A stretch of DNA of 64,000 bases from Lachnospiraceae bacterium (GTDB lineage Bacteria > Bacillota > Clostridia > Lachnospirales > Lachnospiraceae). Below the pieces are notes generated by a model, which was not told the DNA's origin, made no database searches, and saw only the letters and a list, made by a program, of their open reading frames with translations. The stretch is from NCBI GenBank assembly GCA_910575775.1, contig CAJTEY010000006.1, positions 1 to 64,000 on the forward strand, written 5' to 3'. Below are positions 31,585 through 63,819 of this stretch, one piece after another. How positions within the stretch are numbered: position 1 is the stretch's first letter; every line of letters begins with the position of its first letter. The position numbers were made by a program, and so were the translations under genes.

Positions 31585-31593
31585 ATATCCAAG

Positions 31594-31669
31594 CAGGGGG
31601 ACTACAGTGTAGTTGAGAAGGCAGAACCTGACCCTTTGAACCTGTTGGCTAATACCAACGTAGGGAGCG
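31594..31669 (+). ncRNA. TPP riboswitch 1 (THI element)
   Basis: The stretch contains the conserved THI-box pieces in order: GTTGAGAAGGC (the C/UUGAGA core), ACCCTTTGAACCTG, and TAATACCAACGTAGGGA. These build the pyrimidine- and pyrophosphate-sensing arms of the thiamine pyrophosphate aptamer. A terminator hairpin follows 24 bases later, so it should act by premature termination when TPP is high. Confidence 0.95.
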
Positions 31670-31692
31670 AATGATACGATACCGTATTTTTT

Positions 31693-43576: not shown

Positions 43577-45028
43577 TTATTCTGTGTCCTGTGTAAGCTC
43601 TTCGGGAGGATCTTCTGCCTCCGTTTTCTCGCTAAATTCTGTCTGCTCAGAGTCAGTAGCAGTATAGGAAGCAGCATCCTCAGCGACAGAAGCGCAGCCA
43701 GCATCTTTGTGGCTGTCAGCATTTTCTTTAACGACTGCATTTTCTGCTTCATCTGCCGTAGGATCACTTTCCACCAGATCAGCATCCGTTGAGGGGTTGC
43801 TGTCATCTGACGGGGCAGGCTCCTCAAGGGAAGAATCCCCTTCTGCTGAAGTAGATTTGTTAGTAGAAACAGCTTCTTCTGTTACCGCAGATTCGTCAGC
43901 AGAAACACCTTCTTCTGCCAGAGCAGATTCATCAGCAGGAGCATCTTCATTTGATAAGGATGGCTCCTGTTCTGCCTTGTCTGCTTCTGCCAGTTCAAAA
44001 TAACCGACAAGGGAGGTTCCCATGATCTCAATTCTCTTTAAGGTCTTCTCCTTCTTGATGCTGCCAGAAGAGCAGTACTGCTTGTACTCTTCGTAGCACT
44101 CTGCAAAGAAATAGGAAAACCATTGTCTGAAATACATGGGTCCTACGCGGTAGAGGTTCTTGACGGGATCATAACTATCTCCCATAGCAGTGTCAGCGGC
44201 GAGCATAGCGATGGGGATATTGATCTTCTTGAGCATTTTGTCCTTTTCAGGGAAAACTTTCTCAAGATAGTCGATGATGTCATAGAGCCTGTTTTTCTGT
44301 TCCTCCGAGTAATTGTTTTTGATGGAGGCAGCATACATCATGATCTCATCCGCAGAGATGGAAGAGAACTTATACCCTTCATACCTGTTGTCGAGAAGCA
44401 TCATAGCCTGCAGTAAGGTACACATGTCATCAGATTTCCTTCTCTGCAGAGCGGAGAACTGGCAGATCTCCGAAAAGAACCTGTCAGACAGGATCGACTT
44501 GATGAACTTTGCGTTTTCAACACCGCATAAAGGCATGGCTTTCTGCGGTTTGGAAAGGGGCGTACTGTTGTTGAGGCGGAAAAAGATTTCCTCTATCAGA
44601 TCGTCATCCGCATCCTCAAAACCATAGATGGTAAATTTGAAGCGGAGAAGCTCCTGCTGGCATTCAGTGTCGAGGTCTGTAAAGTATTTACCGCCTAATT
44701 CATAAACAGTATCATCAATGGTGACGGAAGGTGTCTCTGTATCAAGTGGATACCTGCCGTCAATAAAATCGAAGATGGTGGTCAGCCGCTGCTTCCCGTC
44801 AAGGATCGAATAGGAATAATCCTTTTCGGAAATGGCTTCTTTCAGGCAGTAGACAGGCGGGACAGGATAGTTGGCGAGTATACTGTGGATCAGCAAACTA
44901 CGTTTTAATCTATCATCCAGCCACTGTAAATTTTGACGTTGAATAGGATGATCCATCTGAAGCGTATGCTTCCCGTCATACATGCTCTTTAAATTCTTTA
45001 CTGTCCAGTTCAGTGTTGTTCTGATCAT
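43577..45028 (-). CDS. DUF262 (GmrSD/ParB-like) protein with long acidic tail
   Basis: The first ~330 residues belong to the DUF262 family: DHPIQRQNLQWLDDRLKRSL, YSILDGKQRLTTIFDFIDG (the nucleotide-binding ParB/Srx-like motif with DGKQR), IFFRLNNSTPLSKPQ. GmrSD-type enzymes use this domain to cut modified DNA, but the GmrD-like HNH half is not present. Residues about 352-483 are a low-complexity Ala/Glu/Ser/Asp tail with imprecise repeats (ADESALAEE and alike), unusual in the family and possibly a DNA-mimic or protein-binding tail. Start with AAAGGAGAAACC. Confidence 0.85.
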   Translation of the reverse strand: MIRTTLNWTVKNLKSMYDGKHTLQMDHPIQRQNLQWLDDRLKRSLLIHSILANYPVPPVYCLKEAISEKDYSYSILDGKQRLTTIFDFIDGRYPLDTETPSVTIDDTVYELGGKYFTDLDTECQQELLRFKFTIYGFEDADDDLIEEIFFRLNNSTPLSKPQKAMPLCGVENAKFIKSILSDRFFSEICQFSALQRRKSDDMCTLLQAMMLLDNRYEGYKFSSISADEIMMYAASIKNNYSEEQKNRLYDIIDYLEKVFPEKDKMLKKINIPIAMLAADTAMGDSYDPVKNLYRVGPMYFRQWFSYFFAECYEEYKQYCSSGSIKKEKTLKRIEIMGTSLVGYFELAEADKAEQEPSLSNEDAPADESALAEEGVSADESAVTEEAVSTNKSTSAEGDSSLEEPAPSDDSNPSTDADLVESDPTADEAENAVVKENADSHKDAGCASVAEDAASYTATDSEQTEFSEKTEAEDPPEELTQDTE

Positions 45029-45794: not shown

Positions 45795-46673
45795 TTATAA
45801 AATAAATCCCCTGCCTTTCTGGTAGAAGTAAGCCTTTGTGCCAAGGATCTCATCTTCTTCTAAAGCCGAAGCATTTACATCCTGATTATGCTTGGTAAGG
45901 ATGTCAATGTCGGAATTATCAGGCGATGACTTGATCAGCACTTCATGTACAGAAGAAAAGATGACATAGAAACTGCCGTGCTTTTCGGCAAAATCTTCCA
46001 GTACATCATCATGCAGTACAGCCGCCGCGCCATAGGTTCTTTTTTGATTGCTCATAAACCACAAACCGCAGTCAGAAGAATGTTCCGCTGGGTAAGCAGG
46101 AAACGTTTCCCTGATGAGCTGTCCTAATGGCATAAGCACTACGTTCTGCATTGCCAGTGTATTCCTGATTGCAAGGGATAAGACAGTCTTACTGTCAGTC
46201 TGCCAGATGTTTAAATGGCTGTTATGTACCATAAAACTTGCATCGCAGTCCTCCGATGTCTCAACGGTGCAGCGGACTATGATGGCAAGATCATCAAGGA
46301 ACATGGTGTGCGGCACATTCTGCAACAGATTTTTATTGAGATGCCTGTTGATCAGTTGGACAAACAGCCTGCTTCTGACATAATCAAAATCATGCAGGGA
46401 TGTAATGTCAAATTGATCCTTATAGGTTCTGGCATTGAAATAAATGTACAGAATCCTGTCAGTGACATCATCAACTGATACGCCATTTTCCAGGGCTTTG
46501 TAAAAAGGTTCCAGATAGATGGTCGGTGTGATGGTTTCACCATCTTTCAAGATTGTAAGTCCATCCAGATCAATGTTTGTTTTCTGCACTTTTTCGAGAG
46601 TGCCGTGGTAGCCGTCTCCTAATTTCTTAGAAAGAGCTTCCAGAATCTGTTGTTTCATTGCTTCTCTGTTCAT
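45795..46673 (-). CDS. DUF5688-family protein
   Basis: The 292-aa protein matches a family of element-borne proteins (DUF5688) with LNIWQTDSKTVLSLAIRNTL and SDCGLWFMSNQKRTYGAAAV; its function is unknown. It is soluble, and the start ATG 46673 follows GAAAGGAG. It is the first gene of the minus-strand module, behind a structured leader and terminator-like hairpin (46702-46790), which may control the whole row. Confidence 0.75.
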   Translation of the reverse strand: MNREAMKQQILEALSKKLGDGYHGTLEKVQKTNIDLDGLTILKDGETITPTIYLEPFYKALENGVSVDDVTDRILYIYFNARTYKDQFDITSLHDFDYVRSRLFVQLINRHLNKNLLQNVPHTMFLDDLAIIVRCTVETSEDCDASFMVHNSHLNIWQTDSKTVLSLAIRNTLAMQNVVLMPLGQLIRETFPAYPAEHSSDCGLWFMSNQKRTYGAAAVLHDDVLEDFAEKHGSFYVIFSSVHEVLIKSSPDNSDIDILTKHNQDVNASALEEDEILGTKAYFYQKGRGFIL

Positions 46674-46701
46674 GTGTTCTCCTTTCGGGGTGAATGTGGA
46701 C

Positions 46702-46790
46702 AAAAAAGCAGACACCTTACGTTTGATGTCTGCCAGTCCAATAGCTTTCAGGCATAGGGATGCCTGTGCTGGTCATATGGCCAGCGGGTT
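46702..46790 (-). ncRNA. Structured leader or small RNA ending in a terminator
   Basis: On the minus strand three hairpins follow one another: GCTGG-CCATATGA-CCAGC, then AGGCAT-CCCT-ATGCCT, then GCAGACA-N12-TGTCTGC with six T's (46702-46707) behind it. The last is a good intrinsic terminator only 30 bases before the DUF5688 start codon. The set may be a small RNA or an attenuator that controls the module. Confidence 0.55.
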
Positions 46791-47347
46791 ACATTTTGTA
46801 TCTTTTATACCTGCTATCCGCCAAAATAGTTATGGTTTATATATTGTAGAAAGATTGGGGGATGAAATAATTGGGAAGGCAGATAGGAATGTTTTAGGGT
46901 GGTTTCCTATATGACTGATCAGTTATTTATTGGAATGGCATTTTTATAATGGTGGTGTATAGAGAAAAGGAAATCATTCGTGATTGTTTGAAAAGGAGCC
47001 TTGATAAAGGCATTCACCCGTAATCTATACTTCTTATCAATATATCAGGGTGCTGTTTAGCAACGTAAAAAAGGAGATGTTTCGACAGTCCATACAGGGT
47101 ACAGGATACATGGTATCTTGCAGACCTGCCTAACGCCAACTTAGTTGACATCAGGATGCTTTGATTATAGAGTAATGTTACGAGGAAGGTGTTTATATAG
47201 GGAAAGTGATAAACAGGAGAAATGATATACAGGGTTCATCTGATATGATGAAGAGCAAAAACAATAGTTTTTGGGTGGGAATGTCTTTTGTGGATGTTCC
47301 CGCTTTTTTATTTACATAGAAATGTTCTGGAATGGGAGGTGAAATAG
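46791..47347. other. Intergenic region between the divergent modules
   Basis: No gene seen. The stretch holds the divergent promoters of the minus-strand module and of the 201-aa plus-strand gene. On the plus strand TTGACA (47145-47150) is followed by TATAGA (47166-47171) with only 15 bp between, so this promoter call is weak. No other recognised repeat. Confidence 0.4.
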
Positions 47348-47953
47348 ATGAAAGAACATATCAAACATTGGTATCCGAAGGATGAGAGGTTTTTCAAAGT
47401 GCTGTCCATAGCAGGGAATGTCAGACAGGAAGATGTGGCTAAGATAGACATATCAGCAAGCAGGCTGAAAAACATGGAGAAAGACAAGCTGATCAAGAAG
47501 GTGACGTATCCATCCAGATATAATAAAAGTCCCAAGAGCAACATAAGCTATGCGCTGACAAAGAAGGGAAAAGATTTCATTGAGAAAAAGTATGGGATAA
47601 GCAGATGCCAGAACGCCCATGCTGCGGAGCATAACTGTAAAGTGGCTGAAATCATATGCAGTCTGGATAAAAAGGAGATTGAGACAGTACAGGCAGAATG
47701 GCAGACAAGGGACCAGATGGAGGAGGCACTGGAGCAGATGAGGCAGGAAGGTGATTATGACCAGTATGATTACTATATGGACCTGTGGAAAGCAGGTCTG
47801 ATCAGTGCCGTGGATGTAGTATACACTTCCGTTAAGACAGGGGAGATGGTGTGTTGTGAGGTTGTGACGAATAGCTATAAAGATTCAGATATACAGGGGA
47901 AGGAATATTGCGGGGAAATTTTGCAGATGGAGGTTGAGTATGTGAGGGTATGA
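47348..47953 (+). CDS. Winged-helix protein with nuclease-like C terminus (replication-relaxation-like?)
   Basis: The 201-aa protein starts with a winged-helix-like domain (VLSIAGNVRQEDVAKIDISA, SYALTKKGKDFIEKKYG). Its C-terminal half, ISAVDVVYTSVKTGEMVCCE and VVTNSY, has the order of acidic residues of restriction-endonuclease-like folds. This resembles replication-relaxation proteins of plasmids and elements, but the match is by feel only. GGGAGGTG precedes ATG 47348. It stands alone between the left module and the defence island. Confidence 0.5.
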   Translation: MKEHIKHWYPKDERFFKVLSIAGNVRQEDVAKIDISASRLKNMEKDKLIKKVTYPSRYNKSPKSNISYALTKKGKDFIEKKYGISRCQNAHAAEHNCKVAEIICSLDKKEIETVQAEWQTRDQMEEALEQMRQEGDYDQYDYYMDLWKAGLISAVDVVYTSVKTGEMVCCEVVTNSYKDSDIQGKEYCGEILQMEVEYVRV

Positions 47954-48072
47954 AGCGACAGGAAGATATGAAAGAATTTTAGGAAAGTATTGACTAAGAT
48001 TATATTATTTGTTTATTATGAATATAAAATAGTTTTACTGTATATAATAGTATTGATTAGAAAATTAAACAG

Positions 48073-48102
48073 TTGACAGCAATAGCCGATTACTGTTATA
48101 AT
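48073..48102 (+). promoter_or_regulatory. Perfect promoter of the Abi-linked small RNA
   Basis: TTGACA (48073-48078) and TATAAT (48097-48102), both perfect, 18 bp apart. The predicted start is about 48109, 86 bases before the abi start codon. Confidence 0.88.
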
Positions 48103-48108
48103 CTAATC

Positions 48109-48178
48109 AATGGATAAGGCTTCAGAAACTTGAGATGCCTGAGGCCGAGGGAGAGCCCTACGGGGTTCTCTTTTTTTT
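48109..48178 (+). ncRNA. Small structured RNA upstream of the Abi_2 gene
   Basis: A roughly 70-nt transcript is predicted between a perfect promoter and a strong terminator. It folds into GGCTTCAG-N13-CTGAGGCC (48118-48146; loop AAACTTGAGATGC) followed by the terminator hairpin. No open frame fits. The abi gene starts 17 bases after the T run. Abi_2/AbiF-type HEPN proteins have been reported with a small RNA partner that neutralises their RNase, and this layout fits that description; the assignment is by layout, not by alignment. Confidence 0.7.
48151..48178 (+). terminator. Terminator of the Abi-linked small RNA
   Basis: GAGAGCCC (48151-48158) pairs with GGGTTCTC (48163-48170), one G-T, around TACG, then eight T's. 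It lies 17 bases before the abi start codon, so only read-through transcripts express the toxin. Confidence 0.92.
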
Positions 48179-48194
48179 GAGAAAGAGGAATACT

Positions 48195-49136
48195 ATGCCA
48201 ATGATAATTGAAACATTTCTAACATATCAACAGTTATTGAATAAACTTGTGAATGATAAAGATTTAATCATTAATGATTTAGTATTTGCGGAAGCAAAAT
48301 TAAAGGAATGTGGATACTTTAATATTATTGGTGGTTACAAAGTACCTTTTACAAATCCCAGTACTAGAAAATATGTGAATAATACAACTTTTGATGATGT
48401 ATTTGCTTTGTATCAATTTGATATTCAGTTAAAAAAACTGTTTTTATCATATCTATGCCAGATAGAGAGAAGAGTAGCTGTTTCTATCGCATATGCATTT
48501 AGTGAGGAACATGGGAATTCGCAATTAGAATATTTGGATAAGGATAATTATAACAATGTCCCAGCCAACACTGATGAAGTTGAAAAATTGGTAAAGATTT
48601 TAGATAGGGTCTTGCATGGTAATAAACATGAATATATAAATCATCATAGGAGTATAAAAGGGAATGTTCCCTTACGAATATTAGTAAATGCATTGACTAT
48701 AGGGAATATTTCCAGCCTATATGCCCTTTCAGAGCATAGTGTAAGAAGTAAAGTGAGTCATAATTTTGTACATGTGAATGAAAAGGAATTGGAGCAATAT
48801 TTAAAAGTGTTGGTAATTTTCAGAAATATGTGTGCCCATAATGAAAGACTGTTTTCGTCTTATGCGCATTCAGAGATACCAAATACGATTATTCATAAGA
48901 AATTAAGAATTCCCCAAATCGGAGAGCAGTATATTTGTGGTAAAAGAGATTTATTTAGCTTGGTGATTGCATTTAGATATTTGCTGCCTAAAGAAGATTT
49001 TCTTGCATTTAAAAAAGTGCTTGTGGATACGATAATTAAATATCTTAAAAACAGCAACAGATTAAGTGAGAATGAATTGCTTAAATATATGGGGTTTCCT
49101 GCAAATTGGAAGAGTATTACTAGATATAAAATATAA
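48195..49136 (+). CDS. Abi_2 (AbiD/AbiF-type) HEPN abortive-infection protein
   Basis: The 313-aa protein belongs to the Abi_2 family. ECGYFNIIGGYKVPF is the family N terminus, FDIQLKKLFLSYLCQIERRV the middle, and RNMCAHNERLF holds the HEPN RNase motif R210-x4-H215. Such proteins arrest infected cells by cutting RNA. Start ATG 48195 follows GAAAGAGGAA; a longer frame from 48135 would run through the RNA terminator. It depends on read-through of the small RNA terminator or on a promoter inside it. AT-rich, unlike the host backbone. Confidence 0.92.
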   Translation: MPMIIETFLTYQQLLNKLVNDKDLIINDLVFAEAKLKECGYFNIIGGYKVPFTNPSTRKYVNNTTFDDVFALYQFDIQLKKLFLSYLCQIERRVAVSIAYAFSEEHGNSQLEYLDKDNYNNVPANTDEVEKLVKILDRVLHGNKHEYINHHRSIKGNVPLRILVNALTIGNISSLYALSEHSVRSKVSHNFVHVNEKELEQYLKVLVIFRNMCAHNERLFSSYAHSEIPNTIIHKKLRIPQIGEQYICGKRDLFSLVIAFRYLLPKEDFLAFKKVLVDTIIKYLKNSNRLSENELLKYMGFPANWKSITRYKI

Positions 49137-49500
49137 ATTATTTTGAAATGGACTGAAGTTTATATAATTAAACTTTAAGTACATAGATACATATTAAAAA
49201 CAAAGGCATTGGAATGCATTATCCAGTGCCTACTTTTGTGCCCAAAAAACTTTTGATCGTACATAAAATCTATTGTAATCGTAAAAAATTGCCTGTATAA
49301 TGAGTAACAATATAATAAAAAAGGCGGATGCGAAAACATCTGCCTATAAAATAAAGTGTGCAATCATTCACCTCACACACTTGATTTCTGTATCATTATA
49401 ACGTAAAAAGACAGAAATACAACAGATTTATTGCATGATAGGCAGTATTTTACATAGACAGAATGATTGCTCCTGAAATATGTATGAAGGGAGTATTTTT
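49137..49500. other. Intergenic region with a minus-strand terminator hairpin
   Basis: No gene seen. AGGCGGATG (49322-49330) pairs with CATCTGCCT (49337-49345), one G-T, around CGAAAA; on the minus strand a T6 run follows (49317-49322), so a leftward transcript would stop here. No leftward gene is seen upstream. A short ORF on the minus strand here is not supported. Confidence 0.5.
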
Positions 49501-49809
49501 ATGGAAGAATATAAATTTGATGGAAGTGCTTATGAGTTTCTTGGAATAATGCGATGGTCTTTGATTGCCAGAGAAATGCAAAAAGAGCACAGAAAGGATC
49601 GCTTTGATGTATTAAAGGATTCAACTAAATTAGAAGAAATTGCAGATGAATATGGTATGGATGATTATGCTCTAATAAAAGAACTGATTCGCCTGACTGA
49701 TGAGTTAAAGAATACAGAATTCTACGAAAGGAAATCCCTTGTTGAAGCCTTACTGCAGTTTGCTCAAGAACTAGAGGAAAAAGAAACAAATGTAGAAAAT
49801 GGCACTTAA
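49501..49809 (+). CDS. Hypothetical protein (102 aa)
   Basis: Not recognised. Acidic, helical and soluble; starts MEEYKFDGSAYEFLGIMRW and ends in a Glu-rich coiled-coil tail (LVEALLQFAQELEEKETN). Start ATG 49501 has AAGGGAG upstream. It stands alone, 365 bases after the Abi gene. No motif suggests a role. Confidence 0.55.
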   Translation: MEEYKFDGSAYEFLGIMRWSLIAREMQKEHRKDRFDVLKDSTKLEEIADEYGMDDYALIKELIRLTDELKNTEFYERKSLVEALLQFAQELEEKETNVENGT

Positions 49810-49977
49810 CCATGTTTGATGCTGAATTACTGCATAATGTTTTCCTACAGAAAAGGAAGCTATGGAGAAGCATTCATTTAATGATAAGGCATATGTTGGG
49901 ATATATGAAGATTTTTCGATAGAAATTCAATAGCGAAGAGGGAGTCCAAACGGATTCCCTCTTAACACTGTAGAGAA

Positions 49978-50820
49978 TTATGCAACGATGTCTACATCAA
50001 AGTAATAGCCAAGAATTTCTAAAGCCTTCTGCCCATAGGACATTTTTAAAACAATATCCTCTGGGAAACAGCACCTCTTTTCCACGATTGGCTCAAAATC
50101 GCCTATCAAGGAAATCTCCTTCAGACAGGTATCTTGAAACCCGTCAGGCGGGAAGTACAGGGAATCTGCATGGGTCCACAAAGACAGGGATTCTAAAGCA
50201 TCTGCACCTGCAAAAGTATATTTTTCCAATTTGTCAAAGTTGCCTTGTATTTCAAGAGATTTAAGGGAATCGCAGCCGTTGAAAAGATGGTTTCCCAATT
50301 CTTTAATTTGATATCCTAAATTCAGAGTTTCCAGACTGCTGCATCCTGTAAATGCCCTGTCTCTGACATTCTTTAAAATATGGAAATGTGCTTCCTTTAG
50401 GCTTTCGCATCCGTTAAAGGCATCATAGGAAATCGTGTTTAAACCACGCTGTGCCCAAATAGATTTCAGGTTTTTACAGTTTGAAAAGGTTCCTTCTTTA
50501 ATGATATGCAGGCTCCTTGGAAGTAGTATATCTTCAAGTTGGCTGCCAGCAAAGCATCTTTTGCCAATCTTTAATCCTCTCGGCAATTTTACATTGTAGA
50601 TATGGGAGTTTTCACATGCTTCGTCTTCCAAATATTCCACACCTTCCTCTATGCAGAGTAGGTTGATCATCAGGTGATCGAAGCAGTGGGGACCAATGCG
50701 ATCAATCTGCATTCCCTTGTATTGATGCGGGATAATAAGGTAATCCAGCCTTTCCCACATCATGCTGTGATTACATTTGACTAATGTGTTAGTTTTTTGG
50801 TCTATAACGAATCTTTCCAT
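49978..50820 (-). CDS. BspA-type leucine-rich repeat protein (LRR_5)
   Basis: The 280-aa protein is built of about eight LRR_5 repeats, each with a pattern like C-x-x-L-x-x-I (examples: FSNCKNLKSI, FNGCESLKEAHF, FTGCSSLETLNL, FNGCDSLKSLEI). There is no signal peptide or anchor, so it should be cytoplasmic, unlike surface BspA proteins. LRR_5 repeats are protein-binding scaffolds. ATG 50820 follows AAAGGAGGAAA. It may be a partner or sensor in the island; function unknown. Confidence 0.85.
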   Translation of the reverse strand: MERFVIDQKTNTLVKCNHSMMWERLDYLIIPHQYKGMQIDRIGPHCFDHLMINLLCIEEGVEYLEDEACENSHIYNVKLPRGLKIGKRCFAGSQLEDILLPRSLHIIKEGTFSNCKNLKSIWAQRGLNTISYDAFNGCESLKEAHFHILKNVRDRAFTGCSSLETLNLGYQIKELGNHLFNGCDSLKSLEIQGNFDKLEKYTFAGADALESLSLWTHADSLYFPPDGFQDTCLKEISLIGDFEPIVEKRCCFPEDIVLKMSYGQKALEILGYYFDVDIVA

Positions 50821-51000
50821 ATAAATTTCCTCCTTTTATGATTTTTCTATTGTTAGTATCTCATACGAAAAATAAATTTTCCAGAGAGAAGGAATTAGAA
50901 ACGTGCTGCTTGGGCACGAAAGTAAAAGTGCGGAAATATCTGTGGTTGTATTGAGGATGTGATGCAATCATTCAGATTGTTCGACATTAGCTGGCAGTAA

Positions 51001-51029
51001 TTGACAGCATATTGCAATAAAGATATAAT
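51001..51029 (+). promoter_or_regulatory. Perfect promoter with no gene directly behind it
   Basis: TTGACA (51001-51006), exactly 17 bp, TATAAT (51024-51029). The predicted start is about 51036. The next plus-strand gene is the metalloprotease candidate over 350 bases away, so the promoter either drives a long leader or an unannotated small RNA. It also reads against the minus-strand membrane gene (51175-51501). The gap 50821-51174 otherwise shows no gene. Confidence 0.75.
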
Positions 51030-51174
51030 GGAGATGACTTATAAATGTAGTCTTTCATCGCTTGAGTTCTAAGGTGATAGATTAGTGAAACAATTTGGAG
51101 ATTGATTAGTCAGCAAATTCTAGCAGAGATCAAACTAGTTGTTTTGTAAAGTTGTGAAACAAAAATTAGAAATA

Positions 51175-51501
51175 TCATGGTGCAAAGAGCATTAATATAA
51201 TGCTTGTAATATATGTTGTCAATGTGATTAGAGTTGCCCACACAGTTTCATAATTACGAACTCTTTCAAGCATAAGGGGGAATTGCCACGTCAGAAATGT
51301 TGTGATTAAAATAAATAGAGCATTGATATTAACATGCTGAAAAACACAGTAATCATATATGCAATAGAGTAGCGGGGGTACGATACAGAAGATGAAGCTC
51401 ATCCATAACAAAAGGCAGGACAGATTGAAGTTTTCACATTCATTCATGCTTTTTCTAAGTGTTGTAAGTATATTGGCAATTTTATTCTGCTTAATATGCA
51501 T
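51175..51501 (-). CDS. Small membrane protein (108 aa), antisense to the next gene's start
   Basis: The frame has a strong AAGGAGATGAAATGC ribosome binding site before ATG 51501, then three hydrophobic helices (about 30-50, 58-76, 88-107) in a protein that looks genuine. It overlaps the plus-strand metalloprotease frame by 110 bases head to head, which is unusual; one of the two starts is probably wrong. Function unknown. Confidence 0.5.
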   Translation of the reverse strand: MHIKQNKIANILTTLRKSMNECENFNLSCLLLWMSFIFCIVPPLLYCIYDYCVFQHVNINALFILITTFLTWQFPLMLERVRNYETVWATLITLTTYITSIILMLFAP

Positions 51502-53051: not shown

Positions 53052-54752
53052 ATGAAACTTGTAGAGTTGCAAATTAAGAATTTTGGCTGTATTGATGAAA
53101 AAGGAGTTACTATTAAAATAGATAATATTGTTGTTTTAATAGGGCCTAATAATGTTGGAAAAACAACGGTGTTAAAGGCATATGAAGCATTTAGAAATTC
53201 TAGCGCAGCACAACCATTGGAAAATTTTTTTCAGCACAGTGAAGAGAATCCTATTGAGATTATAGGTATATTTGGTGAAATAAGCGAAGAGGATAAAACT
53301 CAAATAGGTACAAAGTGGATATATTCAGACGAAGATAATGAAAATGTAATTAAATATAAGTGGGTGTGGGAAAAAAGTGAAGAGAAGGGTAAGAAGTTTT
53401 CTTGGAATAATGAAAGCGCAGAGTGGAATGAAGGCGGGATGGGAGGATGGGATAGTAAAATTGCAAGTTGTATACCGTTGCCATTAAAAGTAAATCCATT
53501 TGATGATTCGGAGCAATTAGAAAAGCAGATTGTTGATTTGCTGACAACCGCAGTAAAAGAAAATATAAAAAATAAACAGTCTGAAGTGTCAAAAATGATT
53601 GAGCAAATAAATGATTTAGCCAAAGATGTAAAGAAAGAAATTAGTGAGGAATTAGAACAGACCACAGGTAAATTACAGGAAAATTTAAATGAGATTTTCC
53701 CAGGCAACATAATTGATATTGAGCCGCAGGCAGGAAAATTTGATGTGGATAAAATATTAGCAACAGGTACGCATTTGCAAATTGCTAGTTATGATGGAAA
53801 ATATTATCCGTTAGCAAATCAAGGGAGTGGTTTGCAAAGGGCATTTTTATGGTCGGCAATTGAGGCGTTAGCAGATTCGGGAAAGATGAAAAGTGGGAGG
53901 AATGCTATAAAAAATGAAGAGCCGAAGATTCTATTGGTAGAAGAACCTGAATCGTTTTTGCATCCACCAGCAATCAGAGCAGCAAGGGAAGCGTTATATA
54001 AAATTGCAGAATTAGAAAATTGGCAAGTTATGATTACAACGCATTCTCCTATTTTTATAGATGTTTCTAAACCGCATACAACAATTATAAGAGTGGAAAA
54101 AAATGAAGGAAATGCAACTAAAACATTTTCAACAGAAGAAGCAGATTTTTCCGAGGATGAAAGAGAAAGATTACAGATGATAAGAAATTGCCACCCTACT
54201 ATTAATGAATTCTTTTTTGCGAATAAAGTTATTTTAATAGAAGGTGATACAGAACAAGCGGCTTTAACGCTGGTTAAGAAAGAGGATGTTTCAGTCTTGA
54301 ACTGTAGAGGAAAAGCTAATATTCCAATGTTTGAAAAAATACTTAATCATTTTGGCATGAGTTATATAGCAATGCATGATCTGGATACTCCTAAAGTTAA
54401 AAGAAAAGATAATTGGATAAAGAATCCAATGTGGTCTATAAATGAAAAAATATATTTAGAGGCACAAAAAGGAAAGAATAATAAAGTAATTGTGAATATT
54501 CCTGACTTTGAAGGACAATTTTTTGGATATTTACAGAAAGGGGATAAGCCGTATAATGCTATTTGTGAATTGCAGAAACCTGAGAAGGAGGATGCTTTAA
54601 CAGAATTGGAAAGTATTGCAAATGGCAATTTGAGTGATCACTATGAACGAGAGGTTTATTCCACAGATGCCTATAGAAATTTTGGCTTGGGCTACTGTGG
54701 GGAAAATAATATAGATACAGTTGATAAGTGGGATTTTAATTTTGAAGAATAG
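53052..54752 (+). CDS. OLD-family ATPase/TOPRIM endonuclease
   Basis: The 566-aa protein has Walker A GPNNVGKTT (31-39), a coiled coil (about 165-215), ABC signature GSGLQRAFLW (about 258), Walker B ILLVEEPESFLHP and H-loop ITTHSPIFID, then a TOPRIM domain with VILIEGDTEQAAL and AMHDLDTP (acidic metal-binding residues). It cuts DNA in an ATP-controlled way; OLD enzymes exclude phages, and GajA of Gabija is a relative. No UvrD-like gajB is near, so this is not classic Gabija. AGAAGAGGAAAA precedes ATG. Confidence 0.9.
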   Translation: MKLVELQIKNFGCIDEKGVTIKIDNIVVLIGPNNVGKTTVLKAYEAFRNSSAAQPLENFFQHSEENPIEIIGIFGEISEEDKTQIGTKWIYSDEDNENVIKYKWVWEKSEEKGKKFSWNNESAEWNEGGMGGWDSKIASCIPLPLKVNPFDDSEQLEKQIVDLLTTAVKENIKNKQSEVSKMIEQINDLAKDVKKEISEELEQTTGKLQENLNEIFPGNIIDIEPQAGKFDVDKILATGTHLQIASYDGKYYPLANQGSGLQRAFLWSAIEALADSGKMKSGRNAIKNEEPKILLVEEPESFLHPPAIRAAREALYKIAELENWQVMITTHSPIFIDVSKPHTTIIRVEKNEGNATKTFSTEEADFSEDERERLQMIRNCHPTINEFFFANKVILIEGDTEQAALTLVKKEDVSVLNCRGKANIPMFEKILNHFGMSYIAMHDLDTPKVKRKDNWIKNPMWSINEKIYLEAQKGKNNKVIVNIPDFEGQFFGYLQKGDKPYNAICELQKPEKEDALTELESIANGNLSDHYEREVYSTDAYRNFGLGYCGENNIDTVDKWDFNFEE

Positions 54753-55381: not shown

Positions 55382-57874
55382 ATGACAACTGTTTTAGATG
55401 AAAACATGGAGGACACAAAGGAAAAATTTGATTCTATTTTGCAAAAGGTAAGTTTAAAAGAGTATTTAAAAGCGGATCCACAACAGGCTGGGGAAAAATC
55501 GGAATTAACACATGCGATGACATATGATTTCTTTCTTAAAAACTTCTGTTGGACAGACGAAAATATCGACAAGTTAATAGAAGATTATAAGTATAAAATC
55601 GAGAATGAAAATAAGAAAAATGTGGTATTACATGGATATGAAGGGTGTGGTAAAACTACATTCATAAATTATTGGATGAATAAAGAAAAGAATCGTCATG
55701 TAGTTCTTGAATTTGATAAGTATATTAGAAGCGGGGACGAACTTTTAGCAACGATTGTTGGAAATATATTTTGTGAATTAAATAAAGATGTATACGAAAA
55801 TCATGCTATAATTATACGTAAAATTTGCGAAATTTTTACTACAGAGGCAAATTTACGATGCATGGCAGAAAATGATATAAAAAATAATTTTATATATATG
55901 TTTGATAAATTTAAATACGTTATACAATTGGTTGATAAAAATGACAGGAAAGAAATTGATCATTATATGCTTTATGATATAAAAAATTTTATGACCGAAA
56001 ATTATCAAATTTCAGAGTTACTGTTATTTATGCTCATTTGGGATATATGTAATAAGCGTATAAATAATTTAAGTAAAGTCTGCTATTTTGTGTTTGAAAA
56101 TTTAGATACTCTTTATGAATCAATTGGATTGCAAAATTTGGTGACAGAAGTTGGCATATTTAGAAATAATGCGGAAACTCTTTTTATGGAAATAAAAGTA
56201 GATAATAATACTATATGTAATCCGACGAAAGAGTATGTCTGTATTTTTGTTATGAGAGATACAACAAAAGCTGTTTTTAATGAGCATATGAATAGTCAAA
56301 AGGTAAGTTTATATATACCCAAAAAATCAATGACTTTTAATTGCCGAATAGATCATGTTATACATAAAAAGGCACAATATCTTGAAAAATTAAGAGATAA
56401 TTATCCTGAAAAATTTAATGAAAATTGTGAAAAACTATTAGAAGGTATACATCGTATAGAAAAAATATTAAACGATGATTATGTGACAGACACGATGTTT
56501 ACTTTGTTTAATAATAATTTTAGAAAGGAATTTGAAATTTTATCAGATATTAATGTTGATAAAGATGAGATTTACGATACATATATAAATTTATGCAATA
56601 TTAACAATAAGTATAAATGGCCTAGATATGCTTCTAGATGTATTTTGTTTAGAAATATTTTTGATTTATTAAATGAGGAGGGCTTTTTTACTACCTTAAA
56701 GCGAACAGATTACGGAAAAGACAAAGGAAACAAAAGATATGCAATAAATTTATCGCGACTTATTCTATTGTATTTGCAAAATTCATATAATAAAGTAACA
56801 GAACAGAAAAGTAGAGAATGGGAATTTATATCTATTGAAATATTAGCTAGGGATATGCTAAAAATTTGTGATGATGAGAACGAAATTGTAAAGGCTTTAT
56901 GGGAAATGTACGAATTCCGAAAGAGAAATAATTGGAATCATTTAATTACTTTTGATTTATTGCATCATGTATCAAAAGAATCTATTTTAAAGCAAATACA
57001 GGCAGTTAAAACAGGACAATACGAAGGAATTGAATTTGGAAAAATAAGAATTACACTAGCAGGTGAAACATATATTGAAAAAGTATTAACACATTTTGAA
57101 TATTTTGTAGCAAGAACTAATATTACTGATATGCCGTCCTTGTTTATTTGGGAAATTACGGATATACTAAATCTTTCTACACTGAATAATTATTTAGATA
57201 TTGGTAAAAGCGAAATTACAGGTTGCTGCAAACGTTTAATGTGTTTTAACGAAGAGGTTCTATCAAATATTTCAGATTATGTAAATGAGAATTTCCTAAA
57301 GAGCAAGTTTGCGCATAGGAAATATTATGAAGATGGAAGTTTTCGAGCGATGTATCATTGTGAAAGAATTGTGCATTCACAGATTAATTATCTCGATGCT
57401 TTTAGGATGTATGTATTCTATAAAATTGATAATAGTTCGTTAAGGAATCTGCATGGAATAAATATTACGAAGTTAGTAGAAAGTAGAGAGAAAGAATCCT
57501 CTTGTTTGTTGCAACAATGTAAAATAGAAGGGGAGAAAAGCTATATAATTATTTCAGATGGTAATATTAATGGAATTAAGTGTATTGGCAAGAGAGATAG
57601 ACAATATGAAACTATAAAACTCCGTGCTGATGAATTAAGAAAATATCTTAAAATTGCGATGAATATAAAAGTGATAAAGGATATTGAAAGCTATATTATG
57701 ATGTTTGGAATAGAAAACATTGAGGAACGCTGTACTGCTATTTCTGATGATACGAAGTTTCTTGTTAATTGCTATGAGGCATGTATTGCTAGCATTAAGA
57801 GATGTAATTATGAAGAATTTGATTTAGAAATAGATCGGACGAATGGAAGAAAAATATTAGGAGATGCATTTTAG
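55382..57874 (+). CDS. Unrecognised large P-loop NTPase (830 aa)
   Basis: Walker A is VLHGYEGCGKTTFINYW (about 82-98) and a Walker B-like strand CYFVFENLDTLYE (about 233-245) follows; IFVMRDTTKAV near 288 could be a sensor strand. This is an AAA/STAND-like core after a short N-terminal region. The remainder (about 330-830) is a long helical part with winged-helix-like stretches and no enzyme motif I can see. The start follows GAAAGGAG. A small membrane-anchored gene begins 15 bases after the stop. In this context a phage-sensing ATPase is likely, but this is inference. Confidence 0.75.
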   Translation: MTTVLDENMEDTKEKFDSILQKVSLKEYLKADPQQAGEKSELTHAMTYDFFLKNFCWTDENIDKLIEDYKYKIENENKKNVVLHGYEGCGKTTFINYWMNKEKNRHVVLEFDKYIRSGDELLATIVGNIFCELNKDVYENHAIIIRKICEIFTTEANLRCMAENDIKNNFIYMFDKFKYVIQLVDKNDRKEIDHYMLYDIKNFMTENYQISELLLFMLIWDICNKRINNLSKVCYFVFENLDTLYESIGLQNLVTEVGIFRNNAETLFMEIKVDNNTICNPTKEYVCIFVMRDTTKAVFNEHMNSQKVSLYIPKKSMTFNCRIDHVIHKKAQYLEKLRDNYPEKFNENCEKLLEGIHRIEKILNDDYVTDTMFTLFNNNFRKEFEILSDINVDKDEIYDTYINLCNINNKYKWPRYASRCILFRNIFDLLNEEGFFTTLKRTDYGKDKGNKRYAINLSRLILLYLQNSYNKVTEQKSREWEFISIEILARDMLKICDDENEIVKALWEMYEFRKRNNWNHLITFDLLHHVSKESILKQIQAVKTGQYEGIEFGKIRITLAGETYIEKVLTHFEYFVARTNITDMPSLFIWEITDILNLSTLNNYLDIGKSEITGCCKRLMCFNEEVLSNISDYVNENFLKSKFAHRKYYEDGSFRAMYHCERIVHSQINYLDAFRMYVFYKIDNSSLRNLHGINITKLVESREKESSCLLQQCKIEGEKSYIIISDGNINGIKCIGKRDRQYETIKLRADELRKYLKIAMNIKVIKDIESYIMMFGIENIEERCTAISDDTKFLVNCYEACIASIKRCNYEEFDLEIDRTNGRKILGDAF

Positions 57875-58598: not shown

Positions 58599-59149
58599 AA
58601 TATGTTACCTTCGAGAATTCGTAAGCATAAAATCTTCTGCCTCGAATTTTAAAGGGGCATGAGAATGGAGCAAATTATACATCAGCTTTGGTTTACGAAC
58701 AGGATGTAAATGTCAAATTGTACGTTTAAGTTATGTTTTCTTTATGTCTTGTTTTAGGGAGTATTAAAAATTCTATATCAAATGTATAGTGCAAAAGTTA
58801 GAAATATATTTCAATGATAAAATCTATATTAATATCAGATGGGATTCCAAATGACATAATTCTATTAAAATCAGAAATGAACAAAGAATTATAAATCATC
58901 TGAATAAAACCATTCAGATGAAGATAATTATGCAGAAAACTAAAAAATCTTTGAACCACTGATAAAATAAGGTTTTCTAAATGTTTAAAATAAATAAAAA
59001 AACAGATAGCATCCGTTATTATGATTCAATAAATAAAATACATATATTTATTTTTCTTATTTGGTTTTAATTGCTATCACTTTATGTATAATTCAATGTT
59101 TTATAACACATTTCAAAGATGCAGTCCAAAAGAAGGGAGGATGAATCGA
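58599..59149. other. AT-rich gap upstream of the recombinase genes
   Basis: No gene seen. TCATCTGAAT-AAAACC-ATTCAGATGA (58896-58921) is a perfect 10-bp hairpin without T run. The right part, with runs of A and T and a split GATAGC/GCTATC pair (about 59015 and 59070), leads into the recombinase operon, and could hold its promoter and regulatory sites. Confidence 0.4.
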
Positions 59150-60322
59150 ATGGATAACATGAAATGGAAAAAGATAATCATAAAAGATAAGTTCCAGACG
59201 GAAAACGGAACAGTACATAATATCCAGAGGATTTATGTAGCGCTCTGCAATACAGAAACAGGGGAATATCTGATCTCCCCATTCTCAGATTTCTTAAATG
59301 AATTTGCAGGCAGGAAGCCAGTCACAGTTTCTCTTGCAGCAGACATCATAACAAGATTTTTAAATTATGCCATTTTTCACAAGAACAGGACCATAGATAC
59401 CCTGACGATCCAGGATGGGATAGATTATTTAAATTCCATCACGGAAACGGCACAAAAGAAGACACAGAGCGAGTATGCCCACTACTTAACGAGGTTTTAT
59501 GCTTTTCTCGATAAAAAAGAAGCACTGAAAGCTGTCCCAAAAGAAGAATTAGAATATTCCACCGATCAAGAGGGACACAGGGTACTGGAAAACCCATTTA
59601 CAGGCAGATTCATTGAAGGGGAGAGAAAGGATGCGGAGCTGATCCACAACATTGAACCAGAATATCTCTACACATTTATAAAGACAGCAATGGATGAAGT
59701 GCCAGACATTGCATTAGGCGTGTTCCTACAGTGCTTTGGGGGACTTCGGAAATCAGAAGTTATTTCCCTTGAATATAAAAATATCTCGATAACGACTGTG
59801 GGAGATAAGAAGTCCATGCAGCTTACCCTAAAAGACAAAGATTTAAGGGAAGATGTATCCACCGCGTTTCTCGCGCACTGCAAGAAGAACAGGATACAGA
59901 CAGTACTGCCAGCTTATGACAGCCTGCTGTGGGAACTGTTTGATAAGCATAAGGAGAGATATAAAAAAGAAGGGTGTTCCGCTGTGTTTGTGGATGCAGA
60001 CGGAAGGGCGATGACAGATGCAGTCTATTATAAGAGGTTTTCCATCCTGAAAGAGAGATTCATAGAAAGACTCAGAAATTCTGACAATTTCGATGCAAAA
60101 AGCTATGCGGTATATCTGAGCACCTATAAATGGTCCACCCACTTATGCAGGGGGATATTCAGCAATCTCATCGCACAGGGGACAGATAATATCATGGAGA
60201 TCGCGGCGTGGAGAGGTGATAAGAACTTATCATCAGCGCTCAGTTATCTTACGGATAGGAAACAGATGGATGAGAATGCCCTCCATATATTGAATGAGCT
60301 TTATAAGGAGGAGATTGGTTGA
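59150..60322 (+). CDS. Tyrosine recombinase 1 (Tn554 TnpA-like)
   Basis: The 390-aa protein has a SAM-like N-terminal arm-binding domain (about 50-140) and a catalytic domain with Arg200 (GGLRKSEVISLEY), His331 and Arg334 (STHLCRGIFSNL), and Tyr366 (SALSYLTDR) as nucleophile. This is the R-HxxR-Y set of phage-integrase-family recombinases. Start ATG 59150 is 9 bases after AAGGGAGG; the ATG at 59141 is too close. The next gene starts 1 base after its stop. Tn554 TnpA (361 aa) is the nearest known layout. Confidence 0.92.
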   Translation: MDNMKWKKIIIKDKFQTENGTVHNIQRIYVALCNTETGEYLISPFSDFLNEFAGRKPVTVSLAADIITRFLNYAIFHKNRTIDTLTIQDGIDYLNSITETAQKKTQSEYAHYLTRFYAFLDKKEALKAVPKEELEYSTDQEGHRVLENPFTGRFIEGERKDAELIHNIEPEYLYTFIKTAMDEVPDIALGVFLQCFGGLRKSEVISLEYKNISITTVGDKKSMQLTLKDKDLREDVSTAFLAHCKKNRIQTVLPAYDSLLWELFDKHKERYKKEGCSAVFVDADGRAMTDAVYYKRFSILKERFIERLRNSDNFDAKSYAVYLSTYKWSTHLCRGIFSNLIAQGTDNIMEIAAWRGDKNLSSALSYLTDRKQMDENALHILNELYKEEIG

Positions 60323-60323
60323 T

Positions 60324-62186
60324 ATGCAGAAGCCGACATTTACGGAGATCAGGCACAGATACAAAGAAAAGTATAAAAAGAGACTGGGTGCAGCAGATGC
60401 TGTGTTAGAAAAGAAACTGGAAGAATACAGGGTCTATCAGGGCGGGCAGGACTGTTTTGGTGAAGGGCAGGATGCACAGGCAGAATGTGAAAAGTTTGTA
60501 GATTTTTTGATGTTGCAGTATAACGCCCTCCATGAAAAACAGGTACAAGAAAAATATGACCTTCTGGTAAAGACACTTCCCAAGGACTATCAGGAAAGAT
60601 TTCCAGATACGATCAGACGGTACGCTGGATATACGAGGTATCTTATCAATAAAAGAAAAAATCTGAAAAGGCATATGGCAAACCATTTTAAGGCTTTAAA
60701 GACAATGCTTTCTTTAATGGATAAGGAGATAGCGGAGTATTCCGATGAAGAACTGGTTGAACTGATCAGGGATAACAGCTTTACTACTGCTGCAAGACAG
60801 TATGCGGTCTGGTTTTTAACATATATCTATAACCAAAAGCCTGAGCAGCTTAAGTTTACTCTGGAGATGAGTATGCTCAGGAGGGAAACGGTAAGAGGGG
60901 AAGCAGACTTTTATACCACCGAAGAATGGGCTTCCTTTGCGGCTGTGTTCTTTGATATTGACAGGCATATAGAAAAAGCCTTTGCAGACTGTTTTTATGC
61001 AAGGTCGTGGCTGTATGCCCTGCTCCATATGTCGCTCGCATGGAGAAAGTCGGATGTGCTGCATATCCCCGCATTGGAAAACCTGATCGATGTTTCTGAA
61101 TATACTTTGGAGTGGTTTGAAGAGAATGCTTTTTCCATAGCAGATGCACAGCAGGTCATAAACCAAGTGAAACTGGCAGCGGAACAGTACCATACACAGA
61201 AGACAGGTGCAAAGAAACATTTCAATATCCCGCAGGCAGCACTTCTTCCAACGGCAATAGCCTTGATTATCTGCGAACAGTGGAGAAGAAAAAAGGGACA
61301 GGCTGTGCTGTTTGAAAGATTCTATGCGGATACCAAGAAAATGACGGAACTGTTTGGACTGGAAACGGACTTCCTAAGTATGAAAGCGAACAGGACACTT
61401 CTCTCCATGTTCAATGAAACAGCGGGTGGGATGGCTGGATTATCTGGAAAAGCAGGAACACTCACTTCCTATATGCGCTCGCATAAGACTTCCAAAATGG
61501 GAAATGCCAATATCACAAAGGTATATCTGCGCTCTACTTACAATGAGAATGAATCTGTATGTATGGGGAAACAGAGCATAGACAGGGGATTTTTCGGATG
61601 GCTGTATGACAGGCTGCTCGACTTGGCTGATAACAAGCAGCGGACATTTAAAGAAAATACAGGGCTGATCGTCCAGATGAAAGAAGCGCTTCCTGCAAGG
61701 AACGTGGAAAGCATTTCAGGGGCATTGTATGGCACCATAAAAGAAAGGGAAATGCTGCTTAACGAGATCTATTCGTGGCAGGAGGATGAGATAAAGGAGA
61801 AAACGGAACTCCTTTTTTCTGGAAAACTGATGAGCAGGACTGAGGATGTCTCCTGCCTGATGAACGGCAGGTGCCCCTATCCAACAGAGGATAAATGTAT
61901 GCTGTGCAAATATTCCATCCCCACAACCTTTTCGCTGGCAATGGCAGGGGATGAACTGAAAAGACTTTTGACAGAGTTTGGGAGAACAAATGCGGAAGAT
62001 GTGATTGACAGAATCAATCTTACCTATCAGATCGGGAAGCTGATCATGGTTTTAAAAGAAGCCATAGACAGATTTGGGTATGAATACATAGAGACTTATA
62101 TTGACTATAAAGAGATAAACGAACTGATCAAGAAAGAGACACCTAACATGATATTTTTGGAGGAGATACAGAATGATAGAAAATAG
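60324..62186 (+). CDS. Recombinase-family protein 2 with C-terminal Cys cluster
   Basis: The 620-aa protein is the size of Tn554 TnpB (630 aa). It has an integrase-like core with HMSLAWRKSDVLHIPALENL for the first arginine, but the later HxxR and Tyr motifs are not evident, so it may be a non-catalytic partner. The C terminus shows CLMNGRCPYPTEDKCMLCKY, a Cys set likely to bind zinc. ATG 60324 follows AAGGAGGAGATTGGTTGAT. It overlaps the next gene by 14 bases; the three move the element together. Confidence 0.85.
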   Translation: MQKPTFTEIRHRYKEKYKKRLGAADAVLEKKLEEYRVYQGGQDCFGEGQDAQAECEKFVDFLMLQYNALHEKQVQEKYDLLVKTLPKDYQERFPDTIRRYAGYTRYLINKRKNLKRHMANHFKALKTMLSLMDKEIAEYSDEELVELIRDNSFTTAARQYAVWFLTYIYNQKPEQLKFTLEMSMLRRETVRGEADFYTTEEWASFAAVFFDIDRHIEKAFADCFYARSWLYALLHMSLAWRKSDVLHIPALENLIDVSEYTLEWFEENAFSIADAQQVINQVKLAAEQYHTQKTGAKKHFNIPQAALLPTAIALIICEQWRRKKGQAVLFERFYADTKKMTELFGLETDFLSMKANRTLLSMFNETAGGMAGLSGKAGTLTSYMRSHKTSKMGNANITKVYLRSTYNENESVCMGKQSIDRGFFGWLYDRLLDLADNKQRTFKENTGLIVQMKEALPARNVESISGALYGTIKEREMLLNEIYSWQEDEIKEKTELLFSGKLMSRTEDVSCLMNGRCPYPTEDKCMLCKYSIPTTFSLAMAGDELKRLLTEFGRTNAEDVIDRINLTYQIGKLIMVLKEAIDRFGYEYIETYIDYKEINELIKKETPNMIFLEEIQNDRK

Positions 62187-63819
62187 AAGCAATGTAAAGA
62201 AACAGGGGATGACTGTGAGGGCGTATGTCGGGGAGAACAGGTCGTCATATCTGGTCATCAAATATAAGATGAACAATGTGGATGAGGAAACCTATATAGA
62301 GATGTTTCATGAACTGAAAAGAACAGGAGCATTTCTCAACGATTCCTATGATGATGACCTCTGGATATGCTTTGAAGATAAAGACAGTCCGACAAGGAGA
62401 CTATCTTTCTCCTTTTTGGAAGCGCATCCTCAGATGGAGAAAGCAGTAAAGAATTATCTGCTGGTAAAGCTGTATGTGCAGAAATGCAGGCTGCTCACTG
62501 TGACAAAAAGGCTGCTGCATATAAAGCACTTTATGGAAGATACAGATTTCGTTAACCCTGATCATGTGAAGGATTATCAGATGCTTATAGGAACATGGAA
62601 TGGAAACAAAAAACGGGAGGCGATTGCAATAAAAGAATTTCTGGAGTTTTCCAATCTTGACCATGCAGGGCTGTATTATGATCTGGTAAAAAATATCAAG
62701 AAAGCAGAGAACAATTACAGGGAGCTTCCAGATTTTCAGGGCGTCCTTATCTTTGACTATATCATAAACGACTATTGGGAGAAGATAAAGGATTCAGAGG
62801 ATAGATACAGACTGTTCCCTGTCATCTTATGGTGGAAACTTACGACAGCCATCCCCACAAGGCCTGTCGAGTTTTACAATTTAAAGAGGGACTGCATTTA
62901 TGAAAGAAATGGAAGGTACTTCTTTAAGATTGAAAGATTAAAGACAGAACTTGGCAAAAAGTTAGCGGTAAGCGATATTGTCACGGATTTTGAGATCAAT
63001 GAGGAACTATACTTCCTGATCCGTGACTATGTGGATTATTGTAACGGGATTGATGACTGCATCTATCTGATCTCGCCGCCGACCTGTGACATGATTTACA
63101 GAAATAAAGTCTTAAATACAAGACAGAAATTCATCACTGAAAAAATGAATATCTATTACCATGCCTTCCAGAAGGAAGTTGTGGAAGGGCAGTACCACTA
63201 TAAAATGGTCAGAAGCCGTATGACTAAAGACAGGGAGCTTCCTTATATCTATTATGGCGATACAAGGCATCTGGCGATCATGAATATGATGCTGCAGGGA
63301 GTAAACCCCATATACATAGCACAGATCGCAGGGCATCACACGCTCGATGCACAGGTGGGATATTATTCACATCTGGAAACAATCACTACGGCAAAGAGTT
63401 ACATCTTAAACCAGTTTATGAAGGGAAATAACCTGTTGAAAAGGCTTTCCAATGATGTCAATATGGGAGAAAAGGTTATCGAGAAGGAACTTTTGGGAGC
63501 TGATTATTTTGCCCTGCCCAAAGTTGCAAAGGGGCAGGGAAGATGCAGTTCCAAGAATATCCCTTATGAATGCAACCATAAATCCTGTCTTTTCTGTAAA
63601 TATTTCTTTCCAGAAAACGTGTCGGAAGACCTGCTTACCTACTATAAAGAAGAAAATGACAGGAATATGGCGTTTGTCAAAAAGTCACTGCAGAGCCTGA
63701 TCGGGCAGATAGACCTAAGAGACGATGCAGAATTACAGCAGAATGCTTTACAGCTTAGTGTTTTATTAAATCAGAAGATAGTGTTAGATTCATACCAATA
63801 TAAGGAGGAAAATAGATGA
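62173..63819 (+). CDS. Tyrosine recombinase 3 with C-terminal Cys cluster
   Basis: The 548-aa protein has Arg230 (AIPTRPVEFYNLKRD), a DTRHLAIMNMML motif with Arg365-His366, GHHTLDAQVGYYSH with His388 and Tyr397/398 as nucleophile candidates. Like the 620-aa protein it ends with a Cys cluster (CNHKSCLFCKYF). TTTTGGAGGAGATACAGA precedes ATG 62173. It overlaps the following TnpC-like gene by 4 bases. Its relation to Tn554 TnpB is likely, given the Cys tail. Confidence 0.9.
   Translation: MIENRSNVKKQGMTVRAYVGENRSSYLVIKYKMNNVDEETYIEMFHELKRTGAFLNDSYDDDLWICFEDKDSPTRRLSFSFLEAHPQMEKAVKNYLLVKLYVQKCRLLTVTKRLLHIKHFMEDTDFVNPDHVKDYQMLIGTWNGNKKREAIAIKEFLEFSNLDHAGLYYDLVKNIKKAENNYRELPDFQGVLIFDYIINDYWEKIKDSEDRYRLFPVILWWKLTTAIPTRPVEFYNLKRDCIYERNGRYFFKIERLKTELGKKLAVSDIVTDFEINEELYFLIRDYVDYCNGIDDCIYLISPPTCDMIYRNKVLNTRQKFITEKMNIYYHAFQKEVVEGQYHYKMVRSRMTKDRELPYIYYGDTRHLAIMNMMLQGVNPIYIAQIAGHHTLDAQVGYYSHLETITTAKSYILNQFMKGNNLLKRLSNDVNMGEKVIEKELLGADYFALPKVAKGQGRCSSKNIPYECNHKSCLFCKYFFPENVSEDLLTYYKEENDRNMAFVKKSLQSLIGQIDLRDDAELQQNALQLSVLLNQKIVLDSYQYKEENR

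Follow-up and report, generated by a model that had tools for sequence, protein, structure and literature searches.

A conserved hairpin RNA of a class absent from Rfam precedes a predicted Abi_2 HEPN toxin gene in Lachnospiraceae: a candidate type III-like toxin-antitoxin pair

We analyzed a stretch of 64,000 nucleotides (nt), referred to here as the window, from a Lachnospiraceae bacterium (assembly GCA_910575775.1, contig CAJTEY010000006.1, positions 1 to 64,000). Its forward strand carries, between positions 48073 and 49136, a predicted promoter, a short structured RNA that we call R1, a predicted terminator, and an Abi_2 gene. The original prediction, made from the letters alone, had proposed this arrangement as a candidate AbiF-type RNA toxin-antitoxin system. 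The features are the following:

48073..48102, + strand: predicted sigma-A promoter, TTGACA-18-TATAAT, read in the sequence (-35 TTGACA at 48073-48078, 18-nt spacer, -10 TATAAT at 48097-48102)
48109..48182, + strand: R1 RNA (conserved 5' tail, hairpin, and terminator), predicted antitoxin RNA of ~70 nt; 65.1 bits against the R1 model, a match that holds by construction, as the window's row is among those that built the model
48119..48145, + strand: conserved hairpin of 7 base pairs (bp), 48119-48125 with 48139-48145, and 13-nt loop 48126-48138, from covariation
48147..48178, + strand: predicted Rho-independent terminator with UACG tetraloop and T run, between the RNA and the toxin gene
48184..48189, + strand: Shine-Dalgarno (SD)-like AGAGGA, from the sequence
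48195..49136, + strand: Abi_2 protein of 313 amino acids (aa), predicted HEPN ribonuclease toxin
48822..48839, + strand: HEPN R-x4-H motif RNMCAH (R210, H215), from the alignment

Promoter, 13-base-loop hairpin, intervening terminator, and Abi_2 gene with its R-x4-H motif had all been named in the original prediction, and each was recovered. In the window, the hairpin has 8 bp, with one extra pair at 48118-48146, and the terminator stem has 12 bp. The segment 48106-48179 folds at -30.5 kcal/mol (z -4.0; 0/200 shuffles as low), an energy that owes part to the terminator. The 5' end of the RNA in the window is placed by the position of the -10 box. The longest open reading frame (ORF) begins at 48135, inside the RNA; this start was rejected, as relatives and the SD-like AGAGGA favor the ATG at 48195, which is the most likely start of the toxin gene on sequence grounds. 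A loosely defined SD-like site was present in 29 of 31 loci examined.

The encoded protein matches PF07751 (Pfam Abi_2) at 140.3 bits, well above the curated cutoff of 25.6, and is labeled AbiD by PADLOC (192 bits), as is its relative from phage phiC2. R210, N211, A214, and H215 do not vary among 62 aligned sequences, one of them the window's. Residues matching R210 and H215 are reported to be needed in PbAbiF and AbiFCd (PMC12373285). The predicted fold of the window protein resembles that of PbAbiF solved with its noncoding RNA (ncRNA) (PDB entry 8vz6), which is far from it in sequence (via PMC12373285 and PMC12737573).

Relatives of the protein matched in 61 of 250 Lachnospiraceae genomes, and genome contigs supplied three loci. 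A recurring block was found in the DNA upstream of the relatives' genes: a seed search scored at least 20 at 29 places, while the best shuffled locus reached 13. The 7-bp hairpin was paired in 217/217 alignment cells (31 sequences), versus 80.6% (standard deviation [SD of shuffles] 1.5) after shuffling, and both sides had changed in 49 cells, versus 14.5 (standard deviation 3.0). Sliding the partner strand by 1 to 3 columns lowered pairing to 27 to 46%. Of five measures of covariation, two did not exceed shuffles, namely, the number of pairs with any double change (5 versus 3.9; 127/500 shuffles) and the number of further pair types (14 versus 12.9; 150/500). Terminator stem pairs also covary across relatives, with one inner pair broken in 10 of 31 rows, and many of the 31 close the terminator stem with a UNCG tetraloop (UGCG or UACG). 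Conservation and covariation upstream of homologous genes, on which the original prediction had staked its case, were thus found, and it is close to certain that R1 is a real structured RNA.

The consensus consists of a 5' AGUGAU tail, the 7-bp hairpin with its 13-nt loop (AnACYUGnGAnGC), and an adjoining terminator that is often UNCG capped. A covariance model (R1) built from the 31-sequence alignment finds the RNA at 31 of 33 Abi_2 loci, 30 of which contributed to the model; loci L005 to L012 stand outside this count. The two missed loci are L035, cut by a contig edge, and L040, whose toxin belongs to another clade. Rows fitted to the model, 82 in all, contain 75 G-U cells and 3 A-C cells, a bias that favors transcription from the + strand. 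A promoter site with at least 8 of 12 letters was present at all 33 R1 places with an intact toxin, the window included, and at least 10 letters matched at 27 of them; mononucleotide shuffles score at least 8 in ~20% of cases and 10 in 0.5%. In 32 of these 33 places, the -10 box ends 5 to 6 nt before the model start, so AGUGAU is probably the RNA 5' end. Upstream of the -35 box, a CATAnnnTA / GCATATACTA motif occurs at 25 of 80 R1 places (~4.8 expected from simple shuffles), with many copies 25 to 38 bp before the -35 box and a similar segment in the window by eye (~48040-48050). It is possibly a second promoter or a regulator site.

Of 250 genomes sampled from the family, 58 had an R1 match at an E value of 0.001 or below, as did 26 of 391 from the class (overlapping samples), the weakest genome matches, at 22 to 28 bits, possibly being due to chance. 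In a phylum sample of 398 genomes, the only hit above 26 bits outside the class was L181 (38.6 bits), whose 3-kb locus holds no toxin relative. R1 together with the toxin also occurs on two contigs of a phage collection.

An Rfam search of the window gave no match above the cutoff at the RNA site. The known abiF RNA family, RF03085, resembles R1 in being a small hairpin RNA just 5' of Abi_2 genes; it differs in loop and stem and accompanies different toxin branches, although many of its matches here fall below the Rfam cutoff (gathering score, 37 bits). RF03085 was absent at an E value of up to 10 from 47950-48300 and from 17 R1 loci, and at up to 0.05 from L002 to L004. The same tool detected RF03085 upstream of the phiC2 phage abiF gene (37.6 bits). 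Within the family, it detected this RNA beside seven distant Abi_2 genes (L127 to L131, L133, and L134; 28.6 to 42 bits, one above 37), and in alphaproteobacteria, upstream of three of seven Abi_2 genes (29.2 to 46.3 bits, one above the cutoff). Conversely, the best score of the R1 model among 37 distant Abi_2 loci was 17.1 bits (L136, E value of 0.0017), and the model had no match in eight RF03085 loci. Rfam has no entry for the R1 class. The available portions of PMC12373285, PMC12737573, PMC8040213, and PMC11109978 contain no R1-like RNA tied to Abi_2; a 2025 Cell paper on AbiF and Cas13 may describe one.

The toxin phylogeny follows the same division. In a tree of 68 toxins, R1 lies upstream in 33 of 34 members of one clade (96/92) and in 0 of 34 others. 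In the exception within the clade, L016, an R1-like RNA directly follows the gene and has both a promoter-like site and a terminator. When phage and plasmid rows were added, R1 lay upstream in 37 of 38 members of the clade (94/91), and the smallest set holding all 11 RF03085 rows (24 rows, 100/100; midpoint root) contained no R1 row. Twelve loci (L006, L007, L009, L010, L012, L020, L035, L037, L038, L041, L115, and L140) are absent from these trees because they yielded no readable protein of at least 240 aa; three whose protein was already represented were merged, L039 (256 aa after a break) and L125 (HEPN motif missing in the reading) were left out, and L002 and L004 were added from the R1 side. 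RNA distances and toxin distances correlate, which argues that the two are inherited together. By eye, short RNA-like blocks also precede a terminator upstream of Abi_2 genes of other clades (L116, L117, L122, L136, and L139; further, L040, L108, and L113; L110 and L124; L118 and L119), and the superfamily may therefore have several classes of antidote RNA beyond RF03085 and R1.

The closest characterized counterpart is AbiFCd/RCd22 of a Clostridioides difficile prophage, which shares with the window the order of promoter, RNA, terminator, and Abi_2 toxin, as well as the HEPN R-x4-H motif (PMC12373285). There, the RNA is reported to arise from a SigA promoter, with most transcription ending at the terminator and read-through yielding the toxin mRNA, and to silence the toxin in trans by binding it; promoter, RNA, terminator, and read-through were reported from experiments (PMC12373285). 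RCd22 contains two RF03085 abiF motifs (PMC12373285), whereas R1 is one different hairpin. The phiC2 protein, 99.88% identical to AbiFCd (PMC12373285), is ~25% identical to the window's protein and falls outside the R1 clade. From the shared layout, we infer the same two-step control. The single predicted promoter would give mostly a ~70-nt RNA that stops at the predicted terminator, and read-through would supply a little mRNA for the Abi_2 protein, so that RNA would be in excess over toxin mRNA. R1 would neutralize the protein by binding it; phage infection or loss of the element would free the toxin, which would then cut RNA.

Order of parts, compensatory hairpin changes, invariant loop letters, and coinheritance with one toxin clade are established at the sequence level. 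With the predicted fold, they make it quite probable that this is an AbiF-kind, type III-like pair in which R1, made from the shared promoter, binds and silences the Abi_2 HEPN toxin; that R1 acts as an antidote is likely. RNA gene, terminator, and toxin gene lie in one predicted transcription unit, and a conserved structured RNA is linked to the toxin. ToxIN, CptIN, and TenpIN likewise combine RNA antitoxin, terminator, and toxin in one unit, but their toxins are described as having another structure and their RNAs as tandem repeats (PMC12373285). Tandem antitoxin repeats are a key type III feature (PMC12373285), and the window has a single R1 unit; hence, we call the system type III-like. 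One locus (L024:247-388) has two tandem R1 copies before one toxin, resembling type III antitoxin repeats.

R1 copies that lack a toxin bear on both this interpretation and its main competitor. The 82 matches represent 80 places, as two rows repeat listed places: the downstream toxin is intact at 33, broken at 12, and missing at 30, and 5 lie at a contig end. Two of the 30 lie just behind a toxin, leaving 28 of 75 places with no toxin downstream or just upstream. Thirty-four R1 rows lack a downstream toxin, 4 of them at a contig end; in these rows, 231 of 238 hairpin cells are paired. R1 also lies just behind a toxin gene at L021:2471-2545, L173:1321-1395, and L016:2142-2215, as a second copy in L021 and L173, and L133 and L134 have a second RF03085 match in the same position; thus, some toxins are flanked by RNA on both sides.

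Six viral contigs match R1 patterns, and one further R1 search pattern matched no viral contig. The toxin adjoins the RNA in L176 and L196, while L177 to L180 have no PF07751 match on the contig, these contigs possibly being fragments. Solitary copies are located at L177:2556-2629, L178:5101-5174, and L079:601-674. The copy in L178 has a promoter-like site and a terminator, lies ~1.3 kb from a tape-measure gene (PHROG, 700 bits), and neighbors a ParE-like gene and a Phd-like gene below the Pfam cutoff. The surroundings in L177 resemble these by eye, and the promoter and RNA block of L079, a bacterial genome, is closely similar to those of L177 and L178. No clear promoter was seen for the copies in L179 and L180. 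Solitary viral copies could be relics or counterdefence RNAs. It is conceivable, though on balance doubtful, that solitary copies such as those in L177 and L178 are portable antidotes that silence Abi_2 toxins in trans, serving phages as counterdefense or protecting chromosomes against addiction.

Several observations weigh against an antidote role or temper it. Conserved letters average 10.74 of 12 in the 34 toxin-less rows versus 11.79 of 12 in the 33 intact-toxin rows, suggesting that part of the former may be decaying, and of the 47 places that lack an intact toxin, only 23 reach a promoter score of at least 10. The asymmetry between RNA and toxin may partly reflect simple decay, a large gene breaking more easily than a 74-nt RNA. 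Many R1 places were found via the toxin search, and the shares given above are therefore not unbiased. Finally, the R1 hairpin is unlike RF03085, and binding at the same protein surface does not follow.

The strongest competitor, which we regard as improbable, is that R1 is a cis-acting attenuator or riboswitch-like leader, in which a signal refolds the RNA, polymerase reads into the toxin gene, and the RNA never acts on the protein. A terminator directly after the hairpin and ahead of the gene suits such a leader, the conserved loop could bind a ligand, and RCd22 of C. difficile lowers expression in cis too (PMC12373285). A purely cis-acting leader is made less likely by the occurrence of R1 without a toxin, in copies that keep the hairpin and partly the promoter (the 28 of 75 places; viral L177 and L178); some of these may be explained as relics, and cis control may exist in addition. 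Moreover, the L016 RNA, behind its toxin and with its own promoter-like site, cannot attenuate that toxin, and the protein is predicted to fold like a toxin in complex with its ncRNA. It is very unlikely that R1 is a type I-like antitoxin, which would base-pair with the toxin mRNA and prevent its translation. Such an antitoxin would also be a small RNA encoded beside the toxin gene, but R1 is on the same strand rather than antisense and pairs with the toxin start no better than noncognate or shuffled RNAs do. Equally remote is a guide-like role in the manner of Cas13, with the RNA directing the HEPN protein to targets: weak structural matches suggest HEPN fold kinship with Cas13 effectors, but the window has a conserved loop instead of a guide and a small protein, and no repeat array was found in 46500-51500. 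Others have reportedly proposed AbiF and its RNA as the starting point of Cas13.

Elsewhere in the window, defense-like neighbors comprise a GmrSD_N protein (43577-45028), an Old-family nuclease (53052-54752; PADLOC Old, 291 bits), and a KAP-type NTPase (55382-57874). Three consecutive large ORFs at 59084-63819, the first with a phage-integrase match below the cutoff (21.3 bits), are possibly a mobile element next to the defense genes. Just 5' of the RNA, 47348-47953 has a Replic_Relax match below the cutoff (20.1 bits) and is possibly a mobile-element gene. A thiamine pyrophosphate (TPP) riboswitch lies at 31585-31683 (58.3 bits).

A second RNA class, on a toxin branch separate from that of RF03085, would show that different antidote RNAs have become partners of a single toxin fold, and the contrast between R1 and RF03085 raises the question of how the same HEPN protein came to read different RNAs. 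The solitary copies would permit a direct test of RNA counterdefense, and R1 and its toxin offer a compact pair amenable to experiment, one that is common in this clostridial family.
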